Positions 29,742 through 61,603 of a DNA stretch of 64,000 nt are shown here, one piece after another. Numbering within the stretch: position 1 is the stretch's first letter; every line of letters begins with the position of its first letter. This stretch comes from Litoditis marina (Eukaryota; Nematoda; Chromadorea; Rhabditida; Rhabditidae). A program made the translations under genes and the position numbers. The notes beneath the pieces are model-generated. The model had not been told where the DNA came from. It did not search any database and saw only the letters and a program-made list of their open reading frames with translations. The DNA lies in assembly GCA_964036275.1 (NCBI GenBank), contig OZ038439.1, positions 5,475,912-5,539,911 on the forward strand. Reading direction: 5' to 3'.

Positions 29742-30007
29742 CTGATTAAACAATAATTCTATGCGCACATCAGAGAAAACATGTACAGTCTTGATTTGGT
29801 TCGTGAATGGCAGGCAGTCTACAATAGTGACGGGTGAATAGTGAAGTAGGAAAGGAAAATACTAGGCTCGCAATAGTAGACGGACAGTTTTGCATAGATC
29901 AAACCATACCGAGACCGAACTACAATGAAGATGATGTAAATCCCTTCACTAAACCAATTGTAAAAACAGCTAAAGTACTACCAATTTCTGCTTTGAACCT
30001 TTTTATC

Positions 30008-30105
30008 GCTCACCCGGATACCCCGAGCAAGCTTTCCAAAAATTAGGTTCAAACACATCTTTCGATGGTTTTCTCCTAAGTACCTTGAGATACTGGGTTT
30101 AAACC
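30008..30105 (-). ncRNA. SL2-like spliced leader RNA gene, copy 1
   Basis: In transcript sense: the leader starts GGTTTAAACCCAG and ends CTCAAG at a GT donor (22 nt). The donor sits in the loop of a short stem (AAG/CTT). A CATC-GAAA-GATG hairpin follows, then the Sm-type site AATTTTTGG and a 10-bp terminal stem (GCTTGCTCGG / CCGGGTGAGC, loop GGTAT). The leader differs from C. elegans SL2 at 3 of 22 positions (from memory). An RNA of about 98-105 nt is expected. Known role: SL RNAs donate the leader to pre-mRNAs by trans-splicing in the nucleus; SL2-type leaders resolve operon transcripts. Exact ends are inferred. Confidence 0.87.
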
Positions 30106-30411
30106 AACGAAGAGGAGAAATGGAATCAGGACGTCCCCTGGTTCGTCGTATCTAATATTGGTAGTGCGACAGACGAGAGCAGTTAGACGCAGACAGTAAG
30201 CGAATGCGAGAGCAATGATAAAAGATGGAGAGAACAGAGCGAGATCTAACATTTGATCAACTAACTCGCTCTGTGAACCGATAAGTAGCTTGCTGAGATG
30301 ATATATTCCGTTGAGTTGTTGCTGTGTTTTTAGTTTGATCTCGTTGAATGTCGAAAATTATGATGTGTAACAGCTAAAGTACTATCAACTTCTACTTTGA
30401 ACCTTTTTATC

Positions 30412-30509
30412 GCTCACCCGGATACCCCGAGCAAGCTTTCCAAAAATTAGGTTCAAACACATCTTTCGATGGTTTTCTCCTAAGTACCTTGAGATACTGG
30501 GTTTAAACC
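30412..30509 (-). ncRNA. SL RNA gene, copy 2
   Basis: Same leader, donor, Sm site and stems as copy 1, 404 bp away. Confidence 0.87.
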
Positions 30510-30815
30510 AACGAAGAGGAGAAATGGAATCAGGACGTCCCCTGGTTCGTCGTATCTAATATTGGTAGTGCGACAGACGAGAGCAGTTAGACGCAGACAG
30601 TAAGCGAATGCGAGAGCAATGATAAAAGATGGAGAGAACAGAGCGAGATCTAACATTTGATCAACTAACTCGCTCTGTGAACCGATAAGTAGCTTGCTGA
30701 GATGATATATTCCGTTGAGTTGTTGCTGTGTTTTTAGTTTGATCTCGTTGAATGTCGAAAATTATGATGTGTAACAGCTAAAGTACTATCAACTTCTACT
30801 TTGAACCTTTTTATC

Positions 30816-30913
30816 GCTCACCCGGATACCCCGAGCAAGCTTTCCAAAAATTAGGTTCAAACACATCTTTCGATGGTTTTCTCCTAAGTACCTTGAGATA
30901 CTGGGTTTAAACG
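30816..30913 (-). ncRNA. SL RNA gene, copy 3 (+1 C variant)
   Basis: Identical body, but the first leader base is C instead of G (TTTAAACG on the plus strand). This may shift the transcription start or alter the cap-adjacent base. Confidence 0.8.
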
Positions 30914-31219
30914 AACGAAAAGGAGAAATGGAATCAGGACGTTCCCTGGTTCGTCGTATCTAATATTGGTAGTGCGACAGACGAGAGCAGTTAGACGCAG
31001 ACAGTAAGCGAATGCGAGAGCAATGATAAAAGATGGAGAGAACAGAGCGAGATCTAACATTTGATCAACTAACTCGCTCTGTGAACCGATAAGTAGCTTG
31101 CTGAGATGATATATTCCGTTGAGTTGTTGCTGTGTTTTTAGTTTGATCTCGTTGAATGTCGAAAATTATGATGTGTAACAGCTAAAGTACTATCAACTTC
31201 TACTTTGAACCTTTTTATC

Positions 31220-31317
31220 GCTCACCCGGATACCCCGAGCAAGCTTTCCAAAAATTAGGTTCAAACACATCTTTCGATGGTTTTCTCCTAAGTACCTTGA
31301 GATACTGGGTTTAAACG
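31220..31317 (-). ncRNA. SL RNA gene, copy 4 (+1 C variant)
   Basis: Same +1 G to C change as copy 3; the donor, Sm site and stems are intact. Confidence 0.8.
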
Positions 31318-31623
31318 AACGAAAAGGAGAAATGGAATCAGGACGTTCCCTGGTTCGTCGTATCTAATATTGGTAGTGCGACAGACGAGAGCAGTGAGAC
31401 GCAGACAGTAAGCAAAAGCGAGAGCAATCATAAAAGATGGAGAGATCAGAGCGAGATCTAACATTTGATCAACTAACTCGCTCTGTGAACCGATAAGTAG
31501 CTTGCTGAGATGATATATTCCGTTGAGTTGTTGCTGTGTTTTTAGTTTGATCTCGTTGAATGTCGAAAATTATGATGTGTAACAGCTAAAGTACTATCAA
31601 CTTCTACTTTGAACCTTTTTATC

Positions 31624-31721
31624 GCTCACCCGGATACCCCGAGCAAGCTTTCCAAAAATTAGGTTCAAACACATCTTTCGATGGTTTTCTCCTAAGTACC
31701 TTGAGATACTGGGTTTAAACC
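31624..31721 (-). ncRNA. SL RNA gene, copy 5
   Basis: Consensus leader and body. Confidence 0.86.
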
Positions 31722-32027
31722 AACGAAGAGGAGAAATGGAATCAGGACGTCCCCTGGTTCGTCGTATCTAATATTGGTAGTGCGACAGACGAGAGCAGTT
31801 AGACGCAGACAGTAAGCGAATGCGAGAGCAATGATAAAAGATGGAGAGAACAGAGCGAGATCTAACATTTGATCAACTAACTCGCTCTGTGAACCGATAA
31901 GTAGCTTGCTGAGATGATATATTCCGTTGAGTTGTTGCTGTGTTTTTAGTTTGATCTCGTTGAATGTCGAAAATTATGATGTGTAACAGCTAAAGTACTA
32001 TCAACTTCTACTTTGAACCTTTTTATC

Positions 32028-32125
32028 GCTCACCCGGATACCCCGAGCAAGCTTTCCAAAAATTAGGTTCAAACACATCTTTCGATGGTTTTCTCCTAAG
32101 TACCTTGAGATACTGGGTTTAAACC
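32028..32125 (-). ncRNA. SL RNA gene, copy 6
   Basis: Consensus leader and body. Confidence 0.86.
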
Positions 32126-32431
32126 AACGAAGAGGAGAAATGGAATCAGGACGTCCCCTGGTTCGTCGTATCTAATATTGGTAGTGCGACAGACGAGAGC
32201 AGTTAGACGCAGACAGTAAGCGAATGCGAGAGCAATGATAAAAGATGGAGAGAACAGAGCGAGATCTAACATTTGATCAACTAACTCGCTCTGTGAACCG
32301 ATAAGTAGCTTGCTGAGATGATATATTCCGTTGAGTTGTTGCTGTGTTTTTAGTTTGATCTCGTTGAATGTCGAAAATTATGATGTGTAACAGCTAAAGT
32401 ACTATCAACTTCTACTTTGAACCTTTTTATC

Positions 32432-32529
32432 GCTCACCCGGATACCCCGAGCAAGCTTTCCAAAAATTAGGTTCAAACACATCTTTCGATGGTTTTCTCC
32501 TAAGTACCTTGAGATACTGGGTTTAAACG
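32432..32529 (-). ncRNA. SL RNA gene, copy 7 (+1 C variant)
   Basis: First leader base C, otherwise consensus. Copies 5-8 repeat the variant order of copies 1-4. Confidence 0.8.
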
Positions 32530-32835
32530 AACGAAAAGGAGAAATGGAATCAGGACGTTCCCTGGTTCGTCGTATCTAATATTGGTAGTGCGACAGACGA
32601 GAGCAGTTAGACGCAGACAGTAAGCGAATGCGAGAGCAATGATAAAAGATGGAGAGAACAGAGCGAGATCTAACATTTGATCAACTAACTCGCTCTGTGA
32701 ACCGATAAGTAGCTTGCTGAGATGATATATTCCGTTGAGTTGTTGCTGTGTTTTTAGTTTGATCTCGTTGAATGTCGAAAATTATGATGTGTAACAGCTA
32801 AAGTACTATCAACTTCTACTTTGAACCTTTTTATC

Positions 32836-32933
32836 GCTCACCCGGATACCCCGAGCAAGCTTTCCAAAAATTAGGTTCAAACACATCTTTCGATGGTTTT
32901 CTCCTAAGTACCTTGAGATACTGGGTTTAAACG
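32836..32933 (-). ncRNA. SL RNA gene, copy 8 (+1 C variant)
   Basis: First leader base C, otherwise consensus. Confidence 0.8.
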
Positions 32934-33239
32934 AACGAAAAGGAGAAATGGAATCAGGACGTTCCCTGGTTCGTCGTATCTAATATTGGTAGTGCGACAG
33001 ACGAGAGCAGTGAGACGCAGACAGTAAGCAAAAGCGAGAGCAATCATAAAAGATGGAGAGATCAGAGCGAGATCTAACATTTGATCAACTAACTCGCTCT
33101 GTGAACCGATAAGTAGCTTGCTGAGATGATATATTCCGTTGAGTTGTTGCTGTGTTTTTAGTTTGATCTCGTTGAATGTCGAAAATTATGATGTGTAACA
33201 GCTAAAGTACTATCAACTTCTACTTTGAACCTTTTTATC

Positions 33240-33337
33240 GCTCACCCGGATACCCCGAGCAAGCTTTCCAAAAATTAGGTTCAAACACATCTTTCGATGG
33301 TTTTCTCCTAAGTACCTTCAGATACTGGGTTTAAACC
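33240..33337 (-). ncRNA. SL RNA gene, copy 9 (leader position 19 variant)
   Basis: The leader ends CTGAAG instead of CTCAAG (C19 to G), so a transcript from it would be recognisable on mRNAs. Last copy before block B1. Confidence 0.82.
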
Positions 33338-33576
33338 AACGAAGAGGAGAAATGGAATCAGGACGTTCCCTGGTTCGTCGTATCTAATATTGGTAGTGCG
33401 ACAGACGAGAGCAGTTAGACGCAGACAGTAAGCAAAAGCGAGAGCGATGATAAAAGATGGAGAGATCAGATCGAGATCTAACATTTGATCAACTAACTCG
33501 CTCTGTGAACCGATAAGTAGCTTGGTGAGATGATATATTCCGTTGATTTGTTGCTGTCTTTGTAGTTTGAATTTCG

Positions 33577-36500
33577 TGAAATCGGCTACCCACAGAATTT
33601 TGTTAACTTGTTACTCACAGAATTTTGTGTTGGTTACTCACGTAATGATGTTAATTTGTTACTCACAGAATTATGTGAGTGAGTAAGATTGTAAGCAAGT
33701 TCAACTTTACTTTATAGTTCCTAATCTTTCTTTCTTGTAAAACGATTAGCAAAGTACAAACCAACGTGTCAAACAGGCTGAACATTGTTTTCAACTTTTC
33801 TGAGGCTCACTCACAGAATTATGTGAGTGAGTAAGATTGTAAGCAAGTTCAACTCTACTTTATAGTTCCTAATCTTTCTCTCTTGTAAAACGATTAGCAA
33901 AGTACAAACCAACGTGTCAAACAGGCTGAACATTGTTTTCAACTTTTCTGAGGCTCACTCACAGAATTTTGTGAGTGAGTAAGATTGTAAGCAAGTTCAA
34001 CTCTACTTTATAGTTCCTAATCTTTCTCTCTTGTAAAACGATTAGCAAAGTACAAACCAACGTGTCAAACAGGCTGAACATTGTTTTGAACTTTTCTGAG
34101 GCTCACTCACAGAATTATGTGAGTGAGTAAGATTGTAAGCAAGTTCAACTCTACTTTATAGTTCCTAATCTTTCTCTCTTGTAAAACGATTAGCAAAGTA
34201 CAAACCAACGTGTCAAACAGGCTGAACATTGTTTTCAACTTTTCTGAGGCTCACTCACAGAATTATGTGAGTGAGTAAGATTGTAAGCAAGTTCAACTCT
34301 ACTTTATAGTTCCTAATCTTTCTCTCTTGTAAAACGATTAGCAAAGTACAAACCAACGTGTCAAACAGGCTGAACATTGTTTTCAACTTTTCTGAGGCTC
34401 ACTCACAGAATTTTGTGAGTGAGTAAGATTGTAAGCAAGTTCAACTCTACTTTATAGTTCCTAATCTTTCTCTCTTGTAAAACGATTAGCAAAGTACAAA
34501 CCAACGTGTCAAACAGGCTGAACATTGTTTTGAACTTTTCTGAGGCTCACTCACAGAATTATGTGAGTGAGTAAGATTGTAAGCAAGTTCAACTCTACTT
34601 TATAGTTCCTAATCTTTCTCTCTTGTAAAACGATTAGCAAAGTACAAACCAACGTGTCAAACAGGCTGAACATTGTTTTCAACTTTTCTGAGGCTCACTC
34701 ACAGAATTATGTGAGTGAGAAAGATTGTAAGCAAGTTCAACTTTACTTTATAGTTCCTAATCTTTCTTTCTTGTAAAACGGTAAGCAAACTATAAAACAA
34801 CGTGTTAAACAGGCTGAACATTGTTTTCAACTTTTCTGAGGCTCACTCACAGAATTATGTGAGTGAGTAAGATTGTAAGCAAGTTCAACTTTCCTTTATA
34901 GTTCCTAATCTTTCTCTCTTGTAAAACGATTAGCAAAGTACAAACCAACGTGTCAAACAGGCTGAACATTGTTTTCAACTTTTCTGAGGCTCACTCACAG
35001 AATTATGTGAGTGAGTAAGATTGTAAGCAAGTTCAACTTTACTTTATAGTTCCTAATCTTTCTTTCTTGTAAAACGGTAAGCAAACTATAAAACAACGTG
35101 TTAAACAGGCTGAACATTGTTTTCAACTTTTCTGAGGCTCACTCACAGAATTATGTGAGTGAGTAAGATTGTAAGCAAGTTCAACTTTCCTTTATAGTTC
35201 CTAATCTTTCTCTCTTGTAAAACGATTAGCAAAGTACAAACCAACGTGTCAAACAGGCTGAACATTGTTTTCAACTTTTCTGAGGCTCACTCACAGAATT
35301 ATGTGAGTGAGTAAGATTGTAAGCAAGTTCAACTTTACTTTATAGTTCCTAATCTTTCTCTCTTGTAAAACGATTAGCAAAGTACAAACCAACGTGTCAA
35401 ACAGGCTGAACATTGTTTTCAACTTTTCTGAGGCTCACTCACAGAATTATGTGAGTGAGTAAGATTGTAAGCAAGTTCAACTTTACTTTATAGTTCCTAA
35501 TCTTTCTCTCTTGTAAAACGATTAGCAAAGTACAAACCAACGTGTCAAACAGGCTGAACATTGTTTTCAACTTTTCTGAGGCTCACTCACAGAATTATGT
35601 GAGTGAGTAAGATTGTAAGCAAGTTCAACTTTCCTTTATAGTTCCTAATCTTTCTTTCTTGTAAAACGATTAGCAAAGTACAAACCAACGTGTCAAACAG
35701 GCTGAACATTGTTTTCAACTTTTCTGAGGCTCACTCACAGAATTATGTGAGTGAGTAAGATTGTAAGCAAGTTCAACTTTACTTTATAGTTCCTAATCTT
35801 TCTTTCTTGTAAAACGGTAAGCAAACTATAAAACAACGTGTTAAACAGGCTGAACATTGTTTTCAACTTTTCTGAGGCTCACTCACCGAATTATGTGAGT
35901 GAGTAAGATTGTAAGCAAGTTCAACTTTCCTTTATAGTTCCTAATCTTTCTCTCTTGTAAAACGATTAGCAAAGTACAAACCAACGTGTCAAACAGGCTG
36001 AACATTGTTTTCAACTTTTCTGAGGCTCACTCACAGAATTATGTGAGTGAGTAAGATTGTAAGCAAGTTCAACTTTACTTTATAGTTCCTAATCTTTCTT
36101 TCTTGTAAAACGGTAAGCAAAGTACAAACCAACGTGTCAAACAGGCTGAACATTGTTTTCAACTTTTCTGAGGCTCACTCACAGAATTATGTGAGTGAGT
36201 AAGATTGTAAGCAAGTTCAACTTTACTTTATAGTTCCTAATCTTTCTTTCTTGTAAAACGATTAGCAAAGTACAAACCAACGTGTCAAACAGGCTGAACA
36301 TTGTTTTCAACTTTTCTGAGGCTCACTCACAGAATAATGTGAGTGAGTAAGATTGTAAGCAAGTTCAACTTTACTTTATAGTTCCTAATCTTTCTTTCTT
36401 GTAAAACGGTAAGCAAAGTACAAACCAACGTGTCAAACAGGCTGAACATTGTTTTCAACTTTTCTGAGGCTCACTCACAGAATTATGTGAGTGAGTAAGA

Positions 36501-37344
36501 TTGTAAGCAAGTTCAACTTTACTTTATAGTTCCTAATCTTTCTTTCTTGTAAAACGATTAGCAAAGTACAAACCAACGTGTCAAACAGGCTGAACATTGT
36601 TTTCAACTTTTCTGAGGCTCACTCACAGATCTGTGAGTGAGCAAGATTGTAAGCAAGTTCAACTCTACTTTATAGTTCCTAATCTTTCTTTCATGTAAAA
36701 CGATTAGCAAAGTACAAACCAACGTGTCAAACAGGCTGAACATTGTTTTCAACTTTTCTGAGGCTCACTCACAGATCTGTGAGTGAGCAAGATTGTAAGC
36801 AAGTTCAACTTTACTTTATAGTTCCTAATCTTTCTTTCTTGTAAAACGATTAGCAAAGTACAAACCAACGTGTCAAACAGGCTGAACATTGTTTTCAACT
36901 TTTCTGAGGCTCACTCACAGAATTATATGAGTGAGTAAGATTGTAAGCAAGTTCAACTTTACTTTATAGTTCCTAATCTTTCTTTCTTGTAAAACGATTA
37001 GCAAAGTACAAACCAACGTGTCAAACAGGCTGAACATTGTTTTCAACTTTTCTGAGGCTCACTCACAGAATTATGTGAGTGAGTAAGATTGTAAGCAAGT
37101 TCAACTCTACTTTATAGTTCCTAATCTTTCTCTCTTGTAAAACGATTAGCAAAGTACAAACCAACGTGTCAAACAGGCTGAACATTGTTTTCAACTTTTC
37201 TGAGGCTCACTCACAGAATTATATGAGTGAGTAAGATTGTAAGCAAGTTCAACTTTACTTTATGGTTCCTAATCTTTCTCTCTTGTAAAACGATTAGCAA
37301 AGTACAAACCAACGTGTCAAACAGGCTGAACATTGTTTTCAACC
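33577..37344. repeat. 148-bp satellite, block B1 (about 25 units)
   Basis: After a short transition module (GGCTACCCACAGAATTTTG...), about 25 units of 148 bp follow, each starting with the palindrome CTCACTCACAGAATTATGTG(AGTGAG). Two main unit types alternate: one with GATTAGCAAAGTACAAACC and one with GGTAAGCAAACTATAAAAC. There is no ORF and no recognisable RNA gene. Confidence 0.9.
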
Positions 37345-37413
37345 CGTTGAATGTCGAAAATTATGATGTGTAACAGCTAAAGTACTACCAATTTCTGCTT
37401 TGACCTTTTTATC

Positions 37414-37511
37414 GCTCACCCGGATACCCCGAGCAAGCTTTCCAAAAATTAGGTTCAAACACATCTTTCGATGGTTTTCTCCTAAGTACCTTGAGATACT
37501 GGGTTTAAACC
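37414..37511 (-). ncRNA. SL RNA gene, copy 10
   Basis: Consensus leader and body; first copy after block B1. Confidence 0.86.
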
Positions 37512-37817
37512 AACGAAGAGGAGAAATGGAATCAGGACGTTCCCTGGTTCGTCGTATCTAATATTGGTAGTGCGACAGACGAGAGCAGTTAGACGCAGAC
37601 AGTAAGCAAAAGCGAGAGCAATGATAAAAGATGGAGAGATCAGAGCGAGATCTAACATTTGATCAACTAACTCGCTCTGTGAACCGATAAGTAGCTTGCT
37701 GAGATGATATATTCCGTTGATTTGTTGCTGTCTTTGTAGTTTGATCTCGTTGAATGTCGAAAATTATGATGTGTAACAGCTAAAGTACTATCAACTTCTA
37801 CTTTGAACCTTTTTATC

Positions 37818-37915
37818 GCTCACCCGGATACCCCGAGCAAGCTTTCCAAAAATTAGGTTCAAACACATCTTTCGATGGTTTTCTCCTAAGTACCTTGAGA
37901 TACTGGGTTTAAACC
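37818..37915 (-). ncRNA. SL RNA gene, copy 11
   Basis: Consensus leader and body. Confidence 0.86.
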
Positions 37916-38221
37916 AACGAAGAGGAGAAATGGAATCAGGACGTTCCCTGGTTCGTCGTATCTAATATTGGTAGTGCGACAGACGAGAGCAGTTAGACGC
38001 AGACAGTAAGCAAAAGCGAGAGCAATGATAAAAGATGGAGAGATCAGAGCGAGATCTAACATTTGATCAACTAACTCGCTCTGTGAACCGATAAGTAGCT
38101 TGCTGAGATGATATATTCCGTTGATTTGTTGCTGTCTTTGTAGTTTGATCTCGTTGAATGTCGAAAATTATGATGTGTAACAGCTAAAGTACTATCAACT
38201 TCTACTTTGAACCTTTTTATC

Positions 38222-38319
38222 GCTCACCCGGATACCCCGAGCAAGCTTTCCAAAAATTAGGTTCAAACACATCTTTCGATGGTTTTCTCCTAAGTACCTT
38301 GAGATACTGGGTTTAAACC
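38222..38319 (-). ncRNA. SL RNA gene, copy 12
   Basis: Consensus leader and body. Confidence 0.86.
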
Positions 38320-38625
38320 AACGAAAAGGAGAAATGGAATCAGGACGTTCCCTGGTTCGTCGTATCTAATATTGGTAGTGCGACAGACGAGAGCAGTGAG
38401 ACGCAGACAGTAAGCAAAAGCGAGAGCAATCATAAAAGATGGAGAGATCAGAGCGAGATCTAACATTTGATCAACTAACTCGCTCTGTGAACCGATAAGT
38501 AGCTTGCTGAGATGATATATTCCGTTGAGTTGTTGCTGTGTTTGTAGTTTGATCTCGTTGAATGTCGAAAATTATGATGTGTAACAGCTAAAGTACTATC
38601 AACTTCTACTTTGAACCTTTTTATC

Positions 38626-38723
38626 GCTCACCCGGATACCCCGAGCAAGCTTTCCAAAAATTAGGTTCAAACACATCTTTCGATGGTTTTCTCCTAAGTA
38701 CCTTGAGATACTGGGTTTAAACC
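38626..38723 (-). ncRNA. SL RNA gene, copy 13
   Basis: Consensus leader and body. Confidence 0.86.
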
Positions 38724-39029
38724 AACGAAAAGGAGAAATGGAATCAGGACGTTCCCTGGTTCGTCGTATCTAATATTGGTAGTGCGACAGACGAGAGCAG
38801 TGAGACGCAGACAGTAAGCAAAAGCGAGAGCAATCATAAAAGATGGAGAGATCAGAGCGAGATCTAACATTTGATCAACTAACTCGCTCTGTGAACCGAT
38901 AAGTAGCTTGCTGAGATGATATATTCCGTTGAGTTGTTGCTGTGTTTTTAGTTTGATCTCGTTGAATGTCGAAAATTATGATGTGTAACAGCTAAAGTAC
39001 TATCAACTTCTACTTTGAACCTTTTTATC

Positions 39030-39127
39030 GCTCACCCGGATACCCCGAGCAAGCTTTCCAAAAATTAGGTTCAAACACATCTTTCGATGGTTTTCTCCTA
39101 AGTACCTTCAGATACTGGGTTTAAACC
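39030..39127 (-). ncRNA. SL RNA gene, copy 14 (leader position 19 variant)
   Basis: The same C19 to G leader change as copy 9, and the same position beside a B block, consistent with duplication of the composite segment. Confidence 0.82.
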
Positions 39128-39360
39128 AACGAAGAGGAGAAATGGAATCACGACGTTCCCTGGTTCGTCGTATCTAATATTGGTAGTGCGACAGACGAGA
39201 GCAGTTAGACGCAGACAGTAAGCAAAAGCGAGAGCGATGATAAAAGATGGAGAGATCAGATCGAGATCTAACATTTGATCAACTAACTCGCTCTGTGAAC
39301 CGATAAGTAGCTTGGTGAGATGATATATTCCGTTGATTTGTTGCTGTCTTTGTAGTTTGA

Positions 39361-41654: not shown

Positions 41655-41725
41655 CCCGTTGAATGTCGAAAATTATGATGTGTAACAGCTAAAGTACTAC
41701 CAATTTCTGCTTTGACCTTTTTATC

Positions 41726-41823
41726 GCTCACCCGGATACCCCGAGCAAGCTTTCCAAAAATTAGGTTCAAACACATCTTTCGATGGTTTTCTCCTAAGTA
41801 CCTTGAGATACTGGGTTTAAACC
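41726..41823 (-). ncRNA. SL RNA gene, copy 15
   Basis: Consensus leader and body; first copy after block B2. Confidence 0.86.
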
Positions 41824-42129
41824 AACGAAGAGGAGAAATGGAATCAGGACGTTCCCTGGTTCGTCGTATCTAATATTGGTAGTGCGACAGACGAGAGCAG
41901 TTAGACGCAGACAGTAAGCAAAAGCGAGAGCAATGATAAAAGATGGAGAGATCAGAGCGAGATCTAACATTTGATCAACTAACTCGCTCTGTGAACCGAT
42001 AAGTAGCTTGCTGAGATGATATATTCCGTTGATTTGTTGCTGTCTTTGTAGTTTGATCTCGTTGAATGTCGAAAATTATGATGTGTAACAGCTAAAGTAC
42101 TATCAACTTCTACTTTGAACCTTTTTATC

Positions 42130-42227
42130 GCTCACCCGGATACCCCGAGCAAGCTTTCCAAAAATTAGGTTCAAACACATCTTTCGATGGTTTTCTCCTA
42201 AGTACCTTGAGATACTGGGTTTAAACC
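42130..42227 (-). ncRNA. SL RNA gene, copy 16
   Basis: Consensus leader and body. Confidence 0.86.
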
Positions 42228-42533
42228 AACGAAGAGGAGAAATGGAATCAGGACGTTCCCTGGTTCGTCGTATCTAATATTGGTAGTGCGACAGACGAGA
42301 GCAGTTAGACGCAGACAGTAAGCAAAAGCGCGAGCAATGATAAAAGATGGAGAGATCAGATCGAGATCTAACATTTGATCAACTAACTCGCTCTGTGAAC
42401 CGATAAGTAGCTTGGTGAGATGATATATTCCGTTGATTTGTTGCTGTCTTTGTAGTTTGATCTCGTTGAATGTCGAAAATTATGATGTGTAACAGCTAAA
42501 GTACTATCAACTTCTACTTTGAACCTTTTTATC

Positions 42534-42631
42534 GCTCACCCGGATACCCCGAGCAAGCTTTCCAAAAATTAGGTTCAAACACATCTTTCGATGGTTTTCT
42601 CCTAAGTACCTTGAGATACTGGGTTTAAACC
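42534..42631 (-). ncRNA. SL RNA gene, copy 17
   Basis: Consensus leader and body. Confidence 0.86.
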
Positions 42632-44489: not shown

Positions 44490-44490
44490 A

Positions 44491-51076: not shown

Positions 51077-51083
51077 TGAAACT

Positions 51084-51437
51084 CTTGCTGAGATGATATA
51101 TTCCGTTTATTTGTTGCTGTGTTTTTAGTTTGATCTCGTTGAATGTCGAAAATTATGATGTGTAACAGCTAAAGTACTATCAACTTCTACTTTGAACCTT
51201 TTTATTGCTCACCCGGATACCCCGAGCAAGCTTTCCAAAAATTAGGTTCAAACACATCTTTCGATGGTTTTCTCCTAAGTACCTTGAGATACTGGGTTTA
51301 AACCAACGATAAGGAGAAATGGGATCAGGACGTTCCCTGGTTCGTCGTATCTAATATTGGTAGTGCGACAGACGAGAGCAGTTAGACGCAGACAGGAAGC
51401 AAAAGCGAGAGCGATGATAAAAGATGGAGAGATCAGA
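51084..51437 (-). repeat. 404-bp satellite, block A4 (one SL RNA gene)
   Basis: Starts with CTTGCTGAGATGATATATTC at the NeSL 5' junction, so the unit is cut in its spacer, and includes the SL gene with leader start at 51304. It then changes to the B transition module. Confidence 0.85.
51207..51304 (-). ncRNA. SL RNA gene, copy 19
   Basis: Consensus leader and body, with one change (TTATTGCTC) at the terminal stem edge. It is the SL gene nearest to the NeSL 5' end. Confidence 0.83.
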
Positions 51438-54400
51438 TTTGCACACTCACAAAATTTCGTGAACTCCGCTACTCGCATAGTTTCGTGAAATCGGCTACCC
51501 ACAGAATTTTGTTAACTTGTTACTCACAGAATTTTGTGTTGGTTACTCACGTAATGATGTTAATTTGTTACTCACAGAATTATGTGAGTGAGTAAGATTG
51601 TAAGCAAGTTCAACTTTCCTTTATAGTTCCTAATCTTTCTTTCTTGTAAAACGATTAGCAAAGTACAAACCAACGTGTCAAACAGGCTGAACATTGTTTT
51701 CAACTTTTCTGAGGCTCACTCGCAGAATTATGTGAGTGAGTAAGATTGTAAGCAAGTTCAACTTTCCTTTATAGTTCCTAATCTGTCTCTCTTGTAAAAC
51801 GATTAGCAAAGTACAAACCAAAGTGTCAAACAGGCTGAACATTGTTTTCAACTTTTCTGAGGCTCACTCACAGAATTATGTGAGTGAGCAAGATTGTAAG
51901 CAAGTTCAACTTTCCTTTATAGTTCCTAATCTTTCTTTCTTGTAAAACGATTAGCAAAGTACAAACCAACGTGTCAAACAGGCTGAACATTGTTTTCAAC
52001 TTTTCTGAGGCTCACTCACAGAATTATGTGAGTGAGCAAGATTGTAAGCAAGTTCAACTCTACTTTATAGTTCCTAATCTTTCTCTCTTGTAAAACGATT
52101 AGCAAAGTACAAACCAACGTGTCAAACAGGCTGAACATTGTTTTCAACTTTTCTGAGGCTCACTCACAGAATTATGTGAGTGAGTAAGATTGTAAGCAAG
52201 TTCAACTTTACTTTATAGTTCCTAATCTTTCTTTCTTGTAAAACGGTAAGCAAACTATAAAACAACGTGTTAAATAGGCTGAACATTGTTTTCAACTTTT
52301 CTGAGGCTCACTCACAGAATTATGTGAGTGAGTAAGATTGTAAGCAAGTTCAACTTTCCTTTATAGTTCCTAATCTTTCTTTCTTGTAAAACGATTAGCA
52401 AAGTACAAACCAACGTGTCAAACAGGCTGAACATTGTTTTCAACTTTTCTGAGGCTCACTCACAGAATTATGTGAGTGAGCAAGATTGTAAGCAAGTTCA
52501 ACTTTCCTTTATAGTTCCTAATCTTTCTTTCTTGTAAAACGATTAGCAAAGTACAAACCAACGTGTCAAACAGGCTGAACATTGTTTTCAACTTTTCTGA
52601 GGCTCACTCACAGAATTATGTGAGTGAGTAAGATTGTAAGCAAGTTCAACTCTACTTTATAGTTCCTAATCTTTCTTTCTTGTAAAACGATTAGCAAAGT
52701 ACAAACCAACGTGTCAAACAGGCTGAACATTGTTTTCATCTTTTCTGAGGCTCACTCACAGAATTATGTGAGTGAGCAAGATTGTAAGCAAGTTCAACTT
52801 TCCTTTATAGTTCCTAATCTTTCTTTCTTGTAAAACGATTAGCAAAGTACAAACCAACGTGTCAAACAGGCTGAACATTGTTTTCAACTTTTCTGAGGCT
52901 CACTCACAGAATTATGTGAGTGAGCAAGATTGTAAGCAAGTTCAACTTTCCTTTATAGTTCCTAATCTTTCTTTCTTGTAAAACGATTAGCAAAGTACAA
53001 ACCAACGTGTCAAACAGGCTGAACATTGTTTTCAACTTTTCTGAGGCTCACTCACAGAATTATGTGAGTGAGCAAGATTGTAAGCAAGTTCAACTTTCCT
53101 TTATAGTTCCTAATCTTTCTTTCTTGTAAAACGATTAGCAAAGTACAAACCAACGTGTCAAACAGGCTGAACATTGTTTTCAACTTTTCTGAGGCTCACT
53201 CACAGAATTATGTGAGTGAGCAAGATTGTAAGCAAGTTCAACTTTCCTTTATAGTTCCTAATCTTTCTTTCTTGTAAAACGATTAGCAAAGTACAAACCA
53301 ACGTGTCAAACAGGCTGAACATTGTTTTCAACTTTTCTGAGGCTCACTCACAGAATTATGTGAGTGAGCAAGATTGTAAGCAAGTTCAACTCTACTTTAT
53401 AGTTCCTAATCTTTCTCTCTTGTAAAACGATTAGCAAAGTACAAACCAACGTGTCAAACAGGCTGAACATTGTTTTCAACTTTTCTGAGGCTCACTCACA
53501 GAATTATGTGAGTGAGTAAGATTGTAAGCAAGTTCAACTTTCCTTTATAGTTTCTAATCTTTCTTTCTTGTAAAACGATTAGCAAAGTACAAACCAACGT
53601 GTCAAACAGGCTGAACATTGTTTTCAACTTTTCTGAGGCTCACTCACAGAATTATGTGAGTGAGTAAGATTGTAAGCAAGTTCAACTTTCCTTTATAGTT
53701 CCTAATCTGTCTCTCTTGTAAAACGATTAGCAAAGTACAAACCAAAGTGTCAAACAGGCTGAACATTGTTTTCAACTTTTCTGAGGCTCACTCACAGAAT
53801 TATGTGAGTGAGCAAGATTGTAAGCAAGTTCAACTTTCCTTTATAGTTCCTAATCTTTCTTTCTTGTGAAACGATTAGCAAAGTACAAACCAACGTGTCA
53901 AACAGGCTGAACATTGTTTTCAACATTTCTGAGGCTCACTCACAGAATTATGTGAGTGAGTAAGATTGTAAGCAAGTTCAACTTTCCTTTATAGTTCCTA
54001 ATCTGTCTCTCTTGTAAAACGATTAGCAAAGTACAAACCAAAGTGTCAAACAGGCTGAACATTGTTTTCAACTTTTCTGAGGCTCACTCACAGAATTATG
54101 TGAGTGAGCAAGATTGTAAGCAAGTTCAACTCTACTTTATAGTTCCTAATCTTTCTCTCTTGTAAAACGATTAGCAAAGTACAAACCAACGTGTCAAACA
54201 GGCTGAACATTGTTTTCAACTTTTCTGAGGCTCACTCACAGAATTATGTGAGTGAGTAAGATTGTAAGCAAGTTCAACTTTACTTTATAGTTCCTAATCT
54301 TTCTTTCTTGTAAAACGGTAAGCAAACTATAAAACAACGTGTTAAATAGGCTGAACATTGTTTTCAACTTTTCTGAGGCTCACTCACAGAATTATGTGAG

Positions 54401-55106
54401 TGAGTAAGATTGTAAGCAAGTTCAACTTTACTTTATAGTTCCTAATCTTTCTTTCTTGTAAAACGGTAAGCAAACTATAAAACAACGTGTTAAACAGGCT
54501 GAACATTGTTTTCAACTTTTCTGAGGCTCACTCACAGAATTATGTGAGTGAGTAAGATTGTAAGCAAGTTCAACTTTCCTTTATAGTTCCTAATCTGTCT
54601 CTCTTGTAAAACGATTAGCAAAGTACAAACCAAAGTGTCAAACAGGCTGAACATTGTTTTCAACTTTTCTGAGGCTCACTCACAGAATTATGTGAGTGAG
54701 TAAGATTGTAAGCAAGTTCAACTTTACTTTATAGTTCCTAATCTTTCTCTCTTGTAAAACGATTAGCAAAGTACAAACCAAAGTGTCAAACAGGCTGAAC
54801 ATTGTTTTCAACTTTTCTGAGGCTCACTCACAGAATTATGTGAGTGAGTAAGATTGTAAGCAAGTTCAACTCTACTTTATAGTTCCTAATCTTTCTCTCT
54901 TGTAAAACGATTAGCAAAGTACAAACCAACGTGTCAAACAGGCTGAACATTGTTTTCAACTTTTCTGAGGCTCACTCACAGAATTATGTGAGTGAGTAAG
55001 ATTGTAAGCAAGTTCAACTTTACTTTATGGTTCCTAATCTTTCTCTCTTGTAAAACGATTAGCAAAGTACAAACCAACGTGTCAAACAGGCTGAACATTG
55101 TTTTCA
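51438..55106. repeat. 148-bp satellite, block B4 (about 24 units)
   Basis: Transition module, then about 24 units. Many here have GAGTGAGCAAGATTG and AACTTTCCTTTATAG. A variant with TCTGTCTCTC and CCAAAGTGTC occurs several times, showing local spread of sub-variants. The right junction reads TTTTCAACCTGTTGAATG. Confidence 0.9.
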
Positions 55107-55178
55107 ACCTGTTGAATGTCGAAAATTATGATGTGTAACAGCTAAAGTACTACCAATTTCTGCTTTGACCTTTTTATC

Positions 55179-55276
55179 GCTCACCCGGATACCCCGAGCA
55201 AGCTTTCCAAAAATTAGGTTCAAACACATCTTTCGATGGTTTTCTCCTAAGTACCTTGAGATACTGGGTATAAACC
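55179..55276 (-). ncRNA. SL RNA gene, copy 20 (leader position 7 variant)
   Basis: The leader begins GGTTTATACCCAG (A7 to T). Such TATA-containing leaders also exist in nematode SL2 families, from memory. The body is intact. Confidence 0.82.
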
Positions 55277-55582
55277 AACGAAAAGGAGAAATGGAATCAG
55301 GACGTTCCCTGGTTCGTCGTATCTAATATTGGTAGTGCGACAGACGAGAGCAGTGAGACGCAGACAGTAAGCAAAAGCGAGAGCAATGATAAAAGATGGA
55401 GAGATCAGAGCGAAATCTAACATTTGATCAACTAACTCGCTCTGTGAACCGATAAGTAGCTTGCTGAGATGATATATTCCGTTGATTTGTTGCTGTCTTT
55501 GTAGTTTGATCTCGTTGAATGTCGAAAATTATGATGTGTAACAGCTAAAGTACTATCAACTTCTACTTTGAACCTTTTTATC

Positions 55583-55680
55583 GCTCACCCGGATACCCCG
55601 AGCAAGCTTTCCAAAAATTAGGTTCAAACACATCTTTCGATGGTTTTCTCCTAAGTACCTTGAGATACTGGGTTTAAACC
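55583..55680 (-). ncRNA. SL RNA gene, copy 21
   Basis: Consensus leader and body. Confidence 0.86.
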
Positions 55681-55986
55681 AACGAAAAGGAGAAATGGAA
55701 TCAGGACGTTCCCTGGTTCGACGTATCTAATATTGGTAGTGCGACAGACGAGAGCAGTGAGACGCAGACAGTAAGCGAATGCGAGAGCAAAGATAAAAGA
55801 TGGAGAGAACAGAGCGAGATCTAACATTTGATCAACTAACTCGCTCTGTGAACCGATAAGTAGCTTGCTGAGATGATATATTCCGTTGATTTGTTGCTGT
55901 GTTTGTAGTTTGATCTCGTTGAATGTCGAAAATTATGATGTGTAACAGCTAAAGTACTATCAACTTCTACTTTGAACCTTTTTATC

Positions 55987-56084
55987 GCTCACCCGGATAC
56001 CCCGAGCAAGCTTTCCAAAAATTAGGTTCAAACACATCTTTCGATGGTTTTCTCCTAAGTACCTTGAGATACTGGGTTTAAACC
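55987..56084 (-). ncRNA. SL RNA gene, copy 22
   Basis: Consensus leader and body. Confidence 0.86.
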
Positions 56085-56390
56085 AACGAAAAGGAGAAAT
56101 GGAATCAGGACGCTCCCTGGTTCGACGTATCTAATATTGGTAGTGCGACAGACGAGAGCAGTGAGACGCAGACAGTAAGCGAATGCGAGAGCAAAGATAA
56201 AAGATGGAGAGAACAGAGCGAGATCTAACATTTGATCAACTAACTCGCTCTGTGAACCGGAAAGTAGCTTGCTGAGATGATATATTCCGTTGAGTTGTTG
56301 CTGTGTTTGTAGTTTGATCTCGTTGAATGTCGAAAATTATGATGTGTAACAGCTAAAGTACTATCAACTCCTACTTTGAACCTTTTTATC

Positions 56391-56488
56391 GCTCACCCGG
56401 ATACCCCGAGCAAGCTTTCCAAAAATTAGGTTCAAACACATCTTTCGATGGTTTTCTCCTAAGTACCTTGAGATACTGGGTTTAAACC
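56391..56488 (-). ncRNA. SL RNA gene, copy 23
   Basis: Consensus leader and body; last copy before block B5. Confidence 0.84.
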
Positions 56489-56611
56489 AACGAAGAGGAG
56501 AAATGGAATCAGGACGTCCCCTGGTTCGTCGTATCTAATATTGGTAGTGCGACAGACGAGAGCAGTTAGACGCAGACAGTAAGCAAAAGCGAGAGCAATG
56601 ATAAAAGATGG

Positions 56612-59600
56612 AGAGATCAGATTTGCACACTCACAAAATTTCGTGAACTCCGCTACTCGCATAGTTTCGTGAAATCGGCTACCCACAGAATTTTGTTAAC
56701 TTGTTACTCACAGAATTTTGTGTTGGTTACTCACGTAATGATGTTAATTTGTTACTCACAGAATTATGTGAGTGAGTAAGATTGTAAGCAAGTTCAACTT
56801 TCCTTTATAGTTCCTAATCTTTCTTTCTTGTAAAACGATTAGCAAAGTACAAACCAACGTGTCAAACAGGCTGAACATTGTTTTCAACTTTTCTGAGGCT
56901 CACTCACAGAATTATGTGAGTGAGTAAGATTGTAAGCAAGTTCAACTTTACTTTATAGTTCCTAATCTTTCTTTCTTGTAAAACGGTAAGCAAACTATAA
57001 AACAACGTGTTAAATAGGCTGAACATTGTTTTCAACTTTTCTGAGGCTCACTCACAGAATTATGTGAGTGAGTAAGATTGTAAGCAAGTTCAACTTTACT
57101 TTATAGTTCCTAATCTTTCTTTCTTGTAAAACGGTAAGCAAACTATAAAACAACGTGTTAAATAGGCTGAACATTGTTTTCAACTTTTCTGAGGCTCACT
57201 CACAGAATTATGTGAGTGAGTAAGATTGTAAGCAAGTTCAACTTTACTTTATAGTTCCTAATCTTTCTTTCTTGTAAAACGGTAAGCAAACTATAAAACA
57301 AAGTGTTAAACAGGCTGAACTCTGAACATTGTTTTCAACTTTTCTAAGGCTCACTCACAGAATTATGTGAGTGAGTAAGATTGTGAGCAAGTTCAACTTT
57401 ACTTTATAGTTCCTAATCTTTCTTTCTTGTAAAACGGTAAACAAACAATAAAACAACGTGTTAAACAGGCTGAACATTGTTTTCAACTTTTCTAAGGCTC
57501 ACTCACAGAATTATGTGAGTGAGTAAGATTGTAAGCAAGTTCAACTTTACTTTATGGTTCCTAATCTTTCTTTCTTGTAAAACGGTAAGCAAACTATAAA
57601 ACAACGTGTTAAACAGGCTGAACATTGTTTTCAACTTTTCTAAGGCTCACTCACAGAATTATGTGAGTGAGTAAGATTGTAAGCAAGTTCAACTTTACTT
57701 TATGGTTCCTAATCTTTCTTTCTTGTAAAACGGTAAGCAAACTATAAAACAACGTGTTAAACAGGCTGAACATTGTTTTCAACTTTTCTGAGGCTCACTC
57801 ACAGAATTATGTGAGTGATTAAGATTGTAAGCAAGTTCAATTTTACTTTATAGTTCCTAATCTTTCTCTCTTGTAAAACGGTAAGCAAACTATAAAACAA
57901 CGTGTTAAACAGGCTGAACATTGTTTTCAACTTTTTTAAGGCTCACTCACAGAATTATGTGAGTGAGTAAGATTGTAAGCAAGTTCAACTTTACTTTATG
58001 GTTCCTAATCTTTCTTTCTTGTAAAACGGTAAGCAAACTATAAAACAACGTGTTAAACAGGCTGAACATTGTTTTCAACTTTTCTAAGGCTCACTCACAG
58101 AATTATGTGAGTGAGTAAGATTGTAAGCAAGTTCAACTTTACCTTATGGTTCCTAATCTTTCTTTCTTGTAAAACGGTAAGCAAACTATAAAACAACGTG
58201 TTAAACAGGCTGAACATTGTTTTCAACTTTTCTGAGGCTCACTCACAGAATTATGTGAGTGATTAAGATTGTAAGCAAGTTCAATTTTACTTTATAGTTC
58301 CTAATCTTTCTCTCTTGTAAAACGGTAAGCAAACTATAAAACAACGTGTTAAACAGGATGAACATTGTTTTCAACTTTTCTAAGGCTCACTCACAGAATT
58401 ATGTGAGTGAGTAAGATTGTAAGCAAGTTCAACTTTACTTTATGGTTCCTAATCTTTCTTTCTTGTAAAACGGTAAGCAAACTATAAAACAACGTGTTAA
58501 ACAGGCTGAACATTGTTTTCAACTTTTTTAAGGCTCACTCACAGAATTATGTGAGTGAGTAAGATTGTAAGCAAGTTCAACTTTACTTTATAGTTCCTAA
58601 TCTTTCTTTCTTGTAAAACGGTAAGCAAACTATAAAACAAAGTGTTAAACAGGCTGAACTCTGAACATTGTTTTCAACTTTTCTAAGGCTCACTCACAGA
58701 ATTATGTGAGTGAGTAAGATTGTGAGCAAGTTCAACTTTACTTTATAGTTCCTAATCTTTCTTTCTTGTAAAACGGTAAACAAACAATAAAACAACGTGT
58801 TAAACAGGCTGAACATTGTTTTCAACTTTTCTAAGGCTCACTCACAGAATTATGTGAGTGAGTAAGATTGTAAGCAAGTTCAACTTTACTTTATGGTTCC
58901 TAATCTTTCTTTCTTGTAAAACGGTAAGCAAACTATAAAACAACGTGTTAAACAGGCTGAACATTGTTTTCAACTTTTCTGAGGCTCACTCACAGAATTA
59001 TATGAGTGAGTAAGATTGTAAGCAAGTTCAATTTTACTTTATAGTTCCTAATCTTTCTTTCTTGTAAAACGGTAAACAAACAATAAAACAACGTGTTAAA
59101 CAGGCTGAACATTGTTTTCAACTTTTCTAAGGCTCACTCACAGAATTATGTGAGTGAGTAAGATTGTAAGCAAGTTCAACTTTACTTTATGGTTCCTAAT
59201 CTTTCTTTCTTGTAAAACGGTAAGCAAACTATAAAACAACGTGTTAAACAGGCTGAACATTGTTTTCAACTTTTCTGAGGCTCACTCACAGAATTATGTG
59301 AGTGATTAAGATTGTAAGCAAGTTCAATTTTACTTTATAGTTCCTAATCTTTCTCTCTTGTAAAACGGTAAGCAAACTATAAAACAACGTGTTAAACAGG
59401 CTGAACATTGTTTTCAACTTTTTTAAGGCTCACTCACAGAATTATGTGAGTGAGTAAGATTGTAAGCAATCTTTCCATGTAAAACTATTAGCAAAGTACA
59501 AACCAACGTGTTCTTTCATGTGAAAAGGTAAGCAAACTATAAAACAACGTGTTAAACAGGCTGAACATTGTTTTCAACTTTTTTAAGGCTCACTCACAGA

Positions 59601-59690
59601 ATTATGTGAGTGAGTAAGATTGTAAGCAATCTTTCTTTCATGTAAAACGATTAGCAAAGTACAAACCAACGTGTCAAACACACAATTTTC
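56612..59690. repeat. 148-bp satellite, block B5, more diverged
   Basis: About 20 units, mainly of the GGTAAGCAAACTATAAAAC type, with more substitutions than the other blocks (CTAAGGCTCACTC, CTTTATGGTTCC, a CTCTGAACATTG insertion). The last units are deleted and rearranged from about 59460. Confidence 0.88.
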
Positions 59691-59842
59691 CTACAAGCTG
59701 AATCAAGATATTTTAATGGGTTTTTTTTCACATACGAAACAAATAATACCCAAACGCCGACACATTTCCTTTCGCAATCTTGCTGATTGGAAACATTCCA
59801 GGTATCGATAATGTCGATTTCAACACAAAGTTTAATAATAGC
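59691..59842. other. Unique sequence between block B5 and the last SL block
   Basis: About 150 bp unrelated to either satellite, with no ORF or RNA recognised. It directly replaces the 3' two thirds of an SL gene, whose start is at 59878. Confidence 0.5.
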
Positions 59843-59878
59843 TTTCTCCTAAGTACCTTGAGATACTGGGTTTAAACC
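59843..59878 (-). pseudogene. Truncated SL RNA gene (5' part only)
   Basis: The leader and donor are intact, but similarity stops at about +36 and unrelated sequence follows. There is no Sm site or terminal stem. Confidence 0.8.
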
Positions 59879-60184
59879 AACGAAGAGGAGAAATGGAATC
59901 ATGACGTTCCCTGGTTCGTCGTATCTAATCTTGGTAGTGCGACAGACGAGAGCAGTGAGACGCAGACAGTAAGCAAAAGCGAGAGCAATGCCAAAAGATG
60001 GAGAGATCAGAGCGAGATCTAACATTTGATCAACTAACTCGCTCTGTGAACCGATAAGTAGCTTGCTGAGATGATATATTCCGTTGATTTGTTGCTGTCT
60101 TTGTAGTTTGATCTCGTTGAATGTCGAAAATTATGATGTGTAACAGCTAAAGTACTATAAACTTCTACTTTGAACCTTCTTATC

Positions 60185-60282
60185 GCTCACCCGGATACCC
60201 CGAGCAAGCTTTCCAAAAATTAGGTTCAAACACATCTTTCGATGGTTTTCTCCTAAGTACCTTGAGATACTGGGTTTAAACC
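60185..60282 (-). ncRNA. SL RNA gene, copy 24
   Basis: Consensus leader and body with minor flank changes. Confidence 0.84.
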
Positions 60283-60532
60283 AATGAAAAGGAGAAATGG
60301 AATCAGGACGTTCCCTGGTTCGTCGTATCTAATATTGGTAGTGCGACAGACGAGAGCTGTGAGACGCAGACAGTAAGCGAATGCGAGAGCAATGATAAAA
60401 GATGGAGAGAACAGAGCTAGTTCAAACATTTGATGATTGTTTCTGTGTTTGTAGTTTGATCTCGTTGAATGTCGAAAATTATGATGTGTAACAGCTAAAG
60501 TACTATCAACTTCTACTTTGAACCTTTTTATC

Positions 60533-60630
60533 GCTCACCCGGATACCCCGAGCAAGCTTTCCAAAAATTAGGTTCAAACACATCTTTCGATGGTTTTCTC
60601 CTAAGTACCTTGAGATACTGGGTTTAAACC
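60533..60630 (-). ncRNA. SL RNA gene, copy 25
   Basis: Consensus leader and body in a unit shortened to 348 bp. Confidence 0.83.
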
Positions 60631-60874
60631 AACGAAAAGGAGAAATGGAATCAGGACGTTCCCTGGTTCGTCGTATCTAATATTGGTAGTGCGACAGACG
60701 AGAGCTGTGAGACACAGACAGTAAGCGAATGCGAGAGCAATGATAAAAGATGGAGAGAACAGAGCTAGTTCAAACATTTGATGATTGTTTCTGTGTTTGT
60801 AGTTTGATCTCGTTGAATGTCGAAAATTATGATGTGTAACAGTACTATCAACTTCTACTTTGAACCTTTTTATC

Positions 60875-60972
60875 GCTCACCCGGATACCCCGAGCAAGCT
60901 TTCCAAAAATTAGGTTCAAACACATCTTTCGATGGTTTTCTCCTAAGTACCTTCAGATACTGGGTTTAAACC
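60875..60972 (-). ncRNA. SL RNA gene, copy 26 (leader position 19 variant)
   Basis: C19 to G leader variant as in copies 9 and 14; the body is intact. Confidence 0.82.
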
Positions 60973-61273
60973 AACGAAGAGGAGAAATGGAATCAGGACG
61001 TTCCCTGGTTCGTCGTATCTAATCTTGGTAGTGCGACAGACGAGAGCAGTGAGACGCAGACAGTAAGCAAAAGCAAGAGCAATGATAAAATATGGAGAGA
61101 TCAGAGCGAGATCTAACATTTGATCAACTAACTCGCTCTGTGAACCGATAAGTAGCTTGCTGAGATGATATATTCCGTTGATTTGTTGCTGTGTTTTTAG
61201 TTTGATCTCGTTGAATGTCGAAAATTATGATGTGTAACAGCTAAAGTACTATCAACTTCTACTTTGAACCTTT

Positions 61274-61603
61274 TCATCGCTCACCCGGATACCCCGAGCA
61301 AGCTTTCCAAAAATTAGGTTCAAACACATTATTCGATCCCAACTGCTCGAATTTGGAGCTGATATTACCGAAAAGATAGAGTTCAACGTGAAGATGTGCT
61401 TCTTGTTGAGCCTGTCTCCAAGCTATACGTTGTTCTCGCTCTGTCAGATTATGGAAGTGTTCGTTATCTACCAAAGTATTATCCTGTTCGTTTGAGCTAT
61501 CGAGTTCTTCTTTACGTTGATTCGGCTTTCTCAATGGTGTAAAGAAATTTTCAATTGAACTGTCGTCCGAACTATATTTGTCCTTGTTTGTATCAAAGGA
61601 CAT
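61274..61603 (-). CDS. Unidentified ORF running into the SL array edge
   Basis: 109 codons from ATG at 61603. The first about 88 residues are hydrophilic and acidic (SSDDSSIENFFTPLRK; EREQRIAWRQAQQEAH), plausible for a real protein or a transposon ORF. The last about 18 residues are antisense-derived from the truncated SL gene. I do not recognise the family. It may be the N-terminal remnant of a gene or mobile element cut by the array junction, or chance. Confidence 0.3.
   Translation of the reverse strand: MSFDTNKDKYSSDDSSIENFFTPLRKPNQRKEELDSSNEQDNTLVDNEHFHNLTEREQRIAWRQAQQEAHLHVELYLFGNISSKFEQLGSNNVFEPNFWKACSGYPGER
61279..61337 (-). pseudogene. Truncated SL RNA gene (3' part only)
   Basis: The terminal stem, Sm-type site and GTTCAAACACAT segment are present, but similarity ends between about +48 and +40. 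The leader and promoter side are replaced by unique DNA. Confidence 0.8.

Follow-up and report, generated by a model that had tools for sequence, protein, structure and literature searches.

Content and layout of the SL2 gene array

The window analysed, a 64-kb stretch corresponding to C17:5475912-5539911 of a 262-Mb assembly (G000), contains a tandem array of SL2-type spliced leader (SL) RNA genes at positions 29965-61337. Mapping of a 404-bp monomer identified 26 full-length and three broken copies, the same count as in an earlier note on this DNA, and Rfam model RF00199 (SL2) placed all 26 full-length genes on the minus strand between 30004 and 60972. One broken copy lies at 43585-43759 on the plus strand; of the other two, one extends from 59843 and one reaches to 61337. 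Fifty-one matches to the leader pattern with up to 2 mismatches occurred in the window against 1.7 expected (about 30-fold), a number equalled in none of 100 shuffles; about half of these matches were palindromic overlap on the opposite strand. The 404-bp length described earlier applied to most units but not to two near 60437-60834, which were 342-348 bp. No 5S, SL1 or any other Rfam family scored above threshold within the window, as the earlier note had reported for 5S.

The earlier description of a pure satellite had to be abandoned. Six SL2 blocks are interleaved with blocks of a 148-bp satellite (33661-37343, 39451-41655, 51570-55108 and 56754 to about 59680, with a lone unit at 43301-43448) via short junctions of 25-bp-type repeats, and the middle of the array (43759-51083) is occupied by an 86-bp satellite and a 6.2-kb non-long terminal repeat (non-LTR) retrotransposon which was absent from the earlier note. 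The features are listed below, including an example of the proximal sequence element (PSE)-like motif considered in the next section.

29965-33570, minus strand: SL2 block 1, nine 404-bp units, among them a 1616-bp repeat of four units (repeat mapping, Rfam)
30147-30162, minus strand: PSE-like motif ACCAATATTAGATACG, example upstream of an SL2 gene (pattern scan)
33571-37343, unstranded: junction of 25-bp-type repeats (33571-33660) and 148-bp satellite, 24.9 copies (repeat mapping)
37345-39360, minus strand: SL2 block 2, five genes (repeat mapping, Rfam)
39361-41655, unstranded: junction, same sequence as at block 1, then 148-bp satellite, 14.9 copies (repeat mapping)
41657-43168, minus strand: SL2 block 3, four genes (repeat mapping, Rfam)
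43169-43448, unstranded: junction and one 148-bp satellite unit (repeat mapping)
43449-43763, plus strand: inverted junction and inverted SL2 piece keeping SL RNA nucleotides (nt) 1-42 (repeat mapping)
43759-44488, minus strand: 86-bp satellite, 8.5 copies, PSE-like motif in every unit (repeat mapping; also at C2:10372469-10391587)
44489-44853, minus strand: second element copy, 5'-truncated, a 365-nt 3' end (element alignment)
44854-44928, minus strand: 75 bp of 86-bp satellite separating the two element copies (repeat mapping)
44929-51083, minus strand: NeSL-clade non-LTR retrotransposon, near full-length, stop at 46328-46330 (domains, tree)
45296-46327, minus strand: open frame for a zinc knuckle and the restriction-like endonuclease region (collinear with the C-terminal end of R2 proteins and of Caenorhabditis relatives)
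46331-51106, minus strand: open frame, Ulp1-type protease and reverse transcriptase (Pfam), its first bases outside the element
51084-51437, minus strand: SL2 block 4, a single gene at 51203-51304 (Rfam, mapping)
51438-55108, unstranded: junction and 148-bp satellite, 23.9 copies (repeat mapping)
55111-56621, minus strand: SL2 block 5, four genes (repeat mapping, Rfam)
56622-59680, unstranded: junction and 148-bp satellite, about 19 copies, more divergent (repeat mapping)
59843-61337, minus strand: SL2 block 6, three full-length genes plus two broken ones, one from 59843 and the other up to 61337 (Rfam, mapping)

The SL-to-satellite junctions were identical across two (alpha) and three (beta) blocks, and successive copies of the four-unit higher-order repeat in block 1 agreed at 1610 of 1613 bases, indicating that the array expanded through duplications of several sizes. 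Unequal exchange, together with duplication of entire blocks of SL genes plus satellite, would account for both its growth and the likeness of its copies. A site-specific break in the SL2 RNA was considered, as the three broken copies break at nt 36-42; it was not relied upon because three of eight breakpoints falling within 7 bp had a simulated p of about 0.045.

Class, conservation and genomic distribution of the SL2 genes

A search with SL covariance models had been proposed earlier, and all 26 full-length genes scored above the RF00199 gathering score (44.9-50.5 bits against a cut-off of 41). The leader, described in the earlier note as ending CTCAAG at GT, was GGTTTAAACCCAGTATCTCAAG in 18 of the 26 copies. 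The donor GT directly follows the 22-nt leader in every copy, but three leaders end in CTGAAG, four begin with C and one reads GGTTTAT; the variants specific to the array are GGTTTAAACCCAG... and the CTGAAG ending. The spacing given for SL2-like leaders by Guiliano and Blaxter (GGTTT, 3 nt, CCCA, or GGTWW, 3-4 nt, CCCA; PMC1657053) was present as GGTTT-AAA-CCCA in 21 of 26 copies, the exceptions being the four that begin with C and the one with T at nt 7. The array leader is one base apart from that of H. contortus, GGTTTTAACCCAGTATCTCAAG (PMC7652881).

Just five distinct 102-mers were present among the 26 genes, 17 of which are identical, with differences at positions 1, 7, 19 and 99. The donor GT, the terminal stem and the previously noted Sm-type site, AATTTTTGG, occur in all five. 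The stem had been called a perfect 10-bp pairing; in the predicted fold it consists of seven Watson-Crick and three G-U pairs. Leader type, donor, Sm site and terminal stem are those of the SL2 genes of Rhabditina (RF00199; C. elegans, P. pacificus, H. contortus). At the level of sequence the genes therefore belong to the SL2 class, and they would be expected to be transcribed and trans-spliced.

Conservation was counted inside homologous stretches only, with mismatches scored against a reference unit. The gene itself had 9 mismatches in 2652 cells and the block from -70 to -31 had 3 in 1040, compared with 75 in 1560 at -130 to -71, 43 in 780 at -30 to -1 and 24 in 1614 just downstream. The gene and the -70 to -31 block were thus about 10 times less variable than adjacent columns of the same SL2 units. 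Selection on the RNA and on a promoter element would produce such low variation, and gene conversion also acts on the array.

A strict PSE-like pattern was found upstream of 25 of the 26 full-length genes; these 25 were among 36 sites in the window, where none were expected, for a pattern derived from these very sequences. Six other SL2 loci were scanned, of which five contained the motif core TAGATACG or TATGTACG, and the dispersed SL2 copy L011 was without the motif. Its position and the PSE-type promoters of C. elegans SL2 genes (PMC2527325) suggest that the motif is a PSE that would be bound by SNAPc.

Eighty genome sites matched the SL2 leader plus donor with up to 2 mismatches (a control pattern matched none), including 28 in the C17 array, 25 in a second array with spacing of about 403 bp at C3:21849767-21860686, 11 on C151 and 16 dispersed on C1, C2, C3 and C4. 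Sixty-four of the 80 sites fall in three arrays, whereas the SL2 genes of C. elegans are scattered (PMC11822377; PMC1657053). Some C3 and C151 array copies were without donor or leader bases. The dispersed genes include one with the H. contortus leader and one, C2:12923661, that scored 53.5 bits, above every array copy. The dispersed genes, the score of the latter and the defective C3 and C151 copies would fit an array that is mostly a dead SL2-derived satellite, with the working SL2 RNAs coming from the 16 dispersed genes, and concerted evolution alone can hold copies alike. This explanation is nevertheless very unlikely, given that donor, Sm site and leader frame were kept in all 26 window copies, that homogenisation alone would not yield a gene and upstream block so much less variable than their neighbours, and that L011, without the motif, is itself a dispersed copy.

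SL1 genes were identified by their leader because the Rfam SL1 model scores below threshold in this worm (51.6 bits at L082; cut-off 75). The leader with donor and up to 1 mismatch had 864 sites genome-wide. Eleven of the 100 matches listed were at C1:64508-90922, mostly at 1367-bp spacing, and many of the 100 were single and dispersed, outside the 5S tandem. At both SL1 tandem loci scanned, 161 bp separate the end of a 5S gene from the SL1 gene that follows, in a unit of about 1367 bp. No 5S was found in the scanned C3 and C151 SL2 loci (L014, L004). The contrast drawn earlier between 5S-linked SL1 and unlinked SL2 genes thus holds within one genome, as judged from two SL1 loci. Both kinds of array are tandem RNA polymerase II (Pol II) small-RNA genes and both are present here, but the SL2 arrays have no 5S in the window or at the two other loci. 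The three SL2 arrays without 5S beside a separate 5S-linked SL1 array indicate that SL2 genes can be arrayed without 5S.

SL2 genes had been taken as scattered, and no SL2 gene array was found described in the literature searched. For P. pacificus 16 SL2 genes were reported and later at least 41, with no statement on arrays in the portion of the source covered (PMC7986045). A precedent comes from Meloidogyne, where an SL1b gene itself forms a satellite, MelSat01, in which the leader and the Sm site are conserved (PMC9673304). It likewise presents an SL gene as satellite DNA, but it is SL1-type and from a clade IV genus, whereas the present array is SL2-type, from clade V and interleaved with another satellite. 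The leader and the retrotransposon had no match in the viral or prokaryote contigs searched.

Placement of the host relied on the PAQR-type gene to the left of the array, which shared 70-76% identity with proteins of strongylids, Caenorhabditis and Auanema (exons joined by eye). In a tree of a 9-row set it grouped with strongylids, Caenorhabditis, Auanema and Diploscapter with support of 98/95. The host is therefore placed in Rhabditina (clade V), in which SL2 leaders are standard, and the tree rules out an early-branching host, the link that the earlier note had offered.

The retrotransposon and the insertion sites of its relatives

The element in the array (44929-51083) encodes a protease and a reverse transcriptase (Peptidase_C48, E 3.6e-5, 24.2 bits against a cut-off of 20.7; RVT_1, E 4.9e-38), and its endonuclease part matched R2 proteins of solved structure (E 3.3e-10). 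Pfam zf-RVT matched below its cut-off only. Single Caenorhabditis proteins span both pieces collinearly. The frame of the window copy is broken by one in-frame stop (46328-46330), and the C19 family copy is open over 1934 amino acids. The reverse transcriptase grouped with 16 Caenorhabditis, Logan and JGI sequences (96/99), none named NeSL in databases, and the element was assigned to the NeSL clade because a Ulp1-type protease, reverse transcriptase and restriction-like endonuclease are the make-up of that clade (PMC4640811). Copies of the same family, 96-98% alike, were present on C19, C16 (two), C4, C69 and C2, and other families in the genome were 70-73% and about 50% alike. A DUF805b cis-regulatory match inside the element (26.3 bits against a cut-off of 35.6) was taken as chance, as were sub-cut-off miRNA and snoRNA matches.

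The surroundings of the window copy, with an inverted SL piece and a 5'-truncated second copy, are a rearranged block. Its 3' end adjoins the 86-bp satellite, 60 bp past a PSE-like motif, and its 5' end adjoins SL spacer. An inversion restoring a simple insertion in the array failed to explain both ends, and the 86-bp repeat was rejected as a tail belonging to the element, because copies elsewhere terminate at window position 44489 and lack it. The 86-bp satellite (43759-44489 and C2:10372469-10391587) carries the motif at -60 in every unit and has element ends inserted within it. The inverted SL2 piece at 43449-43763 forms a palindrome with its left side (95% over 303 bp) beside long near-identical repeats, as might result if the inverted piece and mid-array element were an assembly artefact. 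We consider such an artefact improbable in view of the family-typical sequence of both element ends and the recurrence of the same satellite with element ends at the second locus on C2.

A search with the element 3' end, in which 40 of 185 candidates were scored, gave 133 matches, mostly 86-bp satellite units, of which at least 42 reach the 3' end. Forty-three 3' flanks were examined, 40 from this search and three from further family copies. Twelve of the 43 ends adjoin the 5' end of a recognisable gene: SL1 (two), SL2, U1, U2 (three), U5, H2A, H2B (two) and an Sm-site RNA with an SL2-like 3' part. These are eight gene classes, and the elements sit in sense orientation relative to the adjoined genes. 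The U1, U2, U5 and SL2 flanks were above Rfam cut-off. Not all insertions are independent, since the three U2 copies share one cluster and the three histone copies another. Among 14 copies with 91-92% similar 3' ends, 10 were at such genes, two at the 86-bp satellite, one at a recurrent family and one unclassified. Insertion at SL genes was seen in related subfamilies (SL1 copies L082 and L052; SL2 copy L083).

The location at a start site was clean on both sides for one SL1 copy, C4:45621015. Its 5' flank matches a 5S-SL1 unit up to 5 bp before SL1 nt 1 (99.4%, 618 bp) and its 3' flank matches from nt 3 onward (99.5%, 817 bp). As both flanks derive from one unit, the insertion occurred at the SL1 start (-5 to +3) with 6 bp lost. 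For the two H2B copies the 3' flank starts at position 1730 or 1724 of the histone unit, in which the 5' flank of the H2A copy ends at 1729. The H2A copy is rearranged, because it joins the H2B promoter side to H2A. The SL2, U1, U5 and Sm-like RNA junctions were identified on the 3' side only.

The order of element 3' end, T-run and RNA 5' end would also fit template-jumping chimeras, in which a small RNA or histone mRNA was reverse-transcribed first and the enzyme then jumped from the 5' end of that RNA to the element 3' end; the R2 reverse transcriptase jumps between templates. For the SL1 copy this is excluded, as its flanks are genomic and continue well past the RNA on both sides within a single 5S-SL1 unit. 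The histone positions 1730, 1724 and 1729 of one unit and the PSE-like motif found 5' of the element in the U2 copies also oppose it, making chimeras highly improbable as a general explanation. The SL1 flanks and histone unit positions instead indicate genomic insertions at start sites rather than retrocopied RNAs.

In the C17 SL2 array, at SL1 and in both U2 flanks, the motif ACC-NRTA-YKRK-RTACG precedes the start or insertion point by 51-67 bp, and the same holds for the 5' flanks of the C16 and C19 element copies. It was at -49 in the 5' flank of the SL1 element copy. Five of the eight element 5' flanks scanned carried a PSE-like motif, two of them being near-identical U2 flanks, and it was not found in the H2A, H2B and Sm-like (L095) flanks among these eight. 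The L095 flank (C1:14841400-14842200) contains what we take to be a GIY-YIG-like stretch and resembles another retroelement.

Several families with lineage-specific sequence targets, such as the SL exon or a U2 site, could together produce the observed mixture of targets with no promoter recognition. Known NeSL families have been described as SL-specific (PMC4640811), and the 3' flanks of a third family, with about 50% identical reverse transcriptase, were U2-internal in four of four examined (by eye), as in Utopia, a related clade with U2 targets. The window's family and the 70% subfamily differ from Utopia in adjoining U2 at its 5' end (L075, L086, L087) and not at an internal site. Furthermore, one subfamily with 91-92% similarity adjoins SL1, SL2, U1, U2, U5, Sm-like RNA, H2A and H2B, and the bases at its junctions had nothing evident in common except the gene start. 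Sequence targets are therefore an unlikely explanation, although one that deserves to be kept in view. Third-family loci were at C4:13252093-13275579, 13767221 and 13844534 and at C17:4071852-4147589, with U2 broken inside the RNA.

Interpretation and neighbouring features

Taken together, the locus is best read, with good confidence, as a clade V SL2 RNA gene array containing a NeSL-clade element whose relatives sit at start sites. Each 404-bp unit would have its own PSE-like promoter and encode an Sm-class RNA of about 102 nt, the first 22 nt of which would be donated to mRNAs by trans-splicing, most likely those of downstream operon genes as in other Rhabditina. A NeSL-clade retrotransposon is now resident inside the array. 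What is new in the array is how genes of a known class are organised. More surprising is the element family, whose targets have gene class and start site in common, not sequence.

The element shares the Ulp1-type protease, reverse transcriptase and restriction-like endonuclease with NeSL-1 and its relatives. Insertion at an SL gene with a small target deletion (deletion rule in PMC3636483) is likewise shared by the SL1 copy of a related subfamily, and a difference is that related copies here are also at U1, U2, U5 and histone starts. The copies at SL1, SL2, small nuclear RNA (snRNA) and histone starts probably follow a common promoter feature rather than a shared DNA sequence. We lean, if only slightly, towards a NeSL-derived lineage that integrates at Pol II starts of the small-RNA class (SL1, SL2, U1, U2, U5 and Sm RNAs, which have a PSE 50-67 bp upstream) and at those of core histone genes, its guide being a factor bound to the promoter and not the target sequence. 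One candidate tether is ATTF-6, which in C. elegans binds U1, U2, U4, U5, SL2, SL1 and histone genes (PMC11822377). No report of start-site targeting by such retrotransposons was found in the literature searched.

Several observations weigh against these readings. Four array copies with C at nt 1 are possibly weak, likeness within the array can stem from gene conversion as well as selection, and the palindrome at 43449-43763 could partly be assembly error. The window copy is not a clean SL2-start insertion, its flanks (86-bp satellite and SL spacer) being oppositely oriented. Only 12 of the 43 ends adjoin recognisable genes; five adjoin the 86-bp or a related satellite, 11 belong to four recurrent families and 15 were unclassified.

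SL2 arrays without 5S beside 5S-linked SL1 genes offer an entry to the dosage and uniformity of an operon-resolving leader. If start-site placement is general, integration would be promoter-directed rather than sequence-directed, SL and snRNA arrays would be the element's refuge, and a retrotransposon able to locate start sites would serve as a natural probe of the features that make small-RNA and histone genes one class. It would also suggest a route between SL-specific (NeSL) and U2-specific (Utopia) targeting.

Other features of interest included the recurrent element 3' flanks (L054/L057/L071/L106/L108, L043/L048, L045/L107 and L056/L111), some of which have a U-rich Sm-like site and are possible undescribed small-RNA genes. 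The histone cluster at C3:13132939-13200471 has mostly 3351-bp spacing and ends in element-invaded units. The array is flanked in the window by Maestro-type HEAT repeat exons on the minus strand (1-24000) and by the PAQR/MMD-type gene on the plus strand (24700-29020), an intron of which contains AT-rich TTTCGAGT-type tandem repeats (26541-26860). GC-rich inverted repeats at 63311-63402 and 63869-63929 are possibly the ends of a short DNA element.

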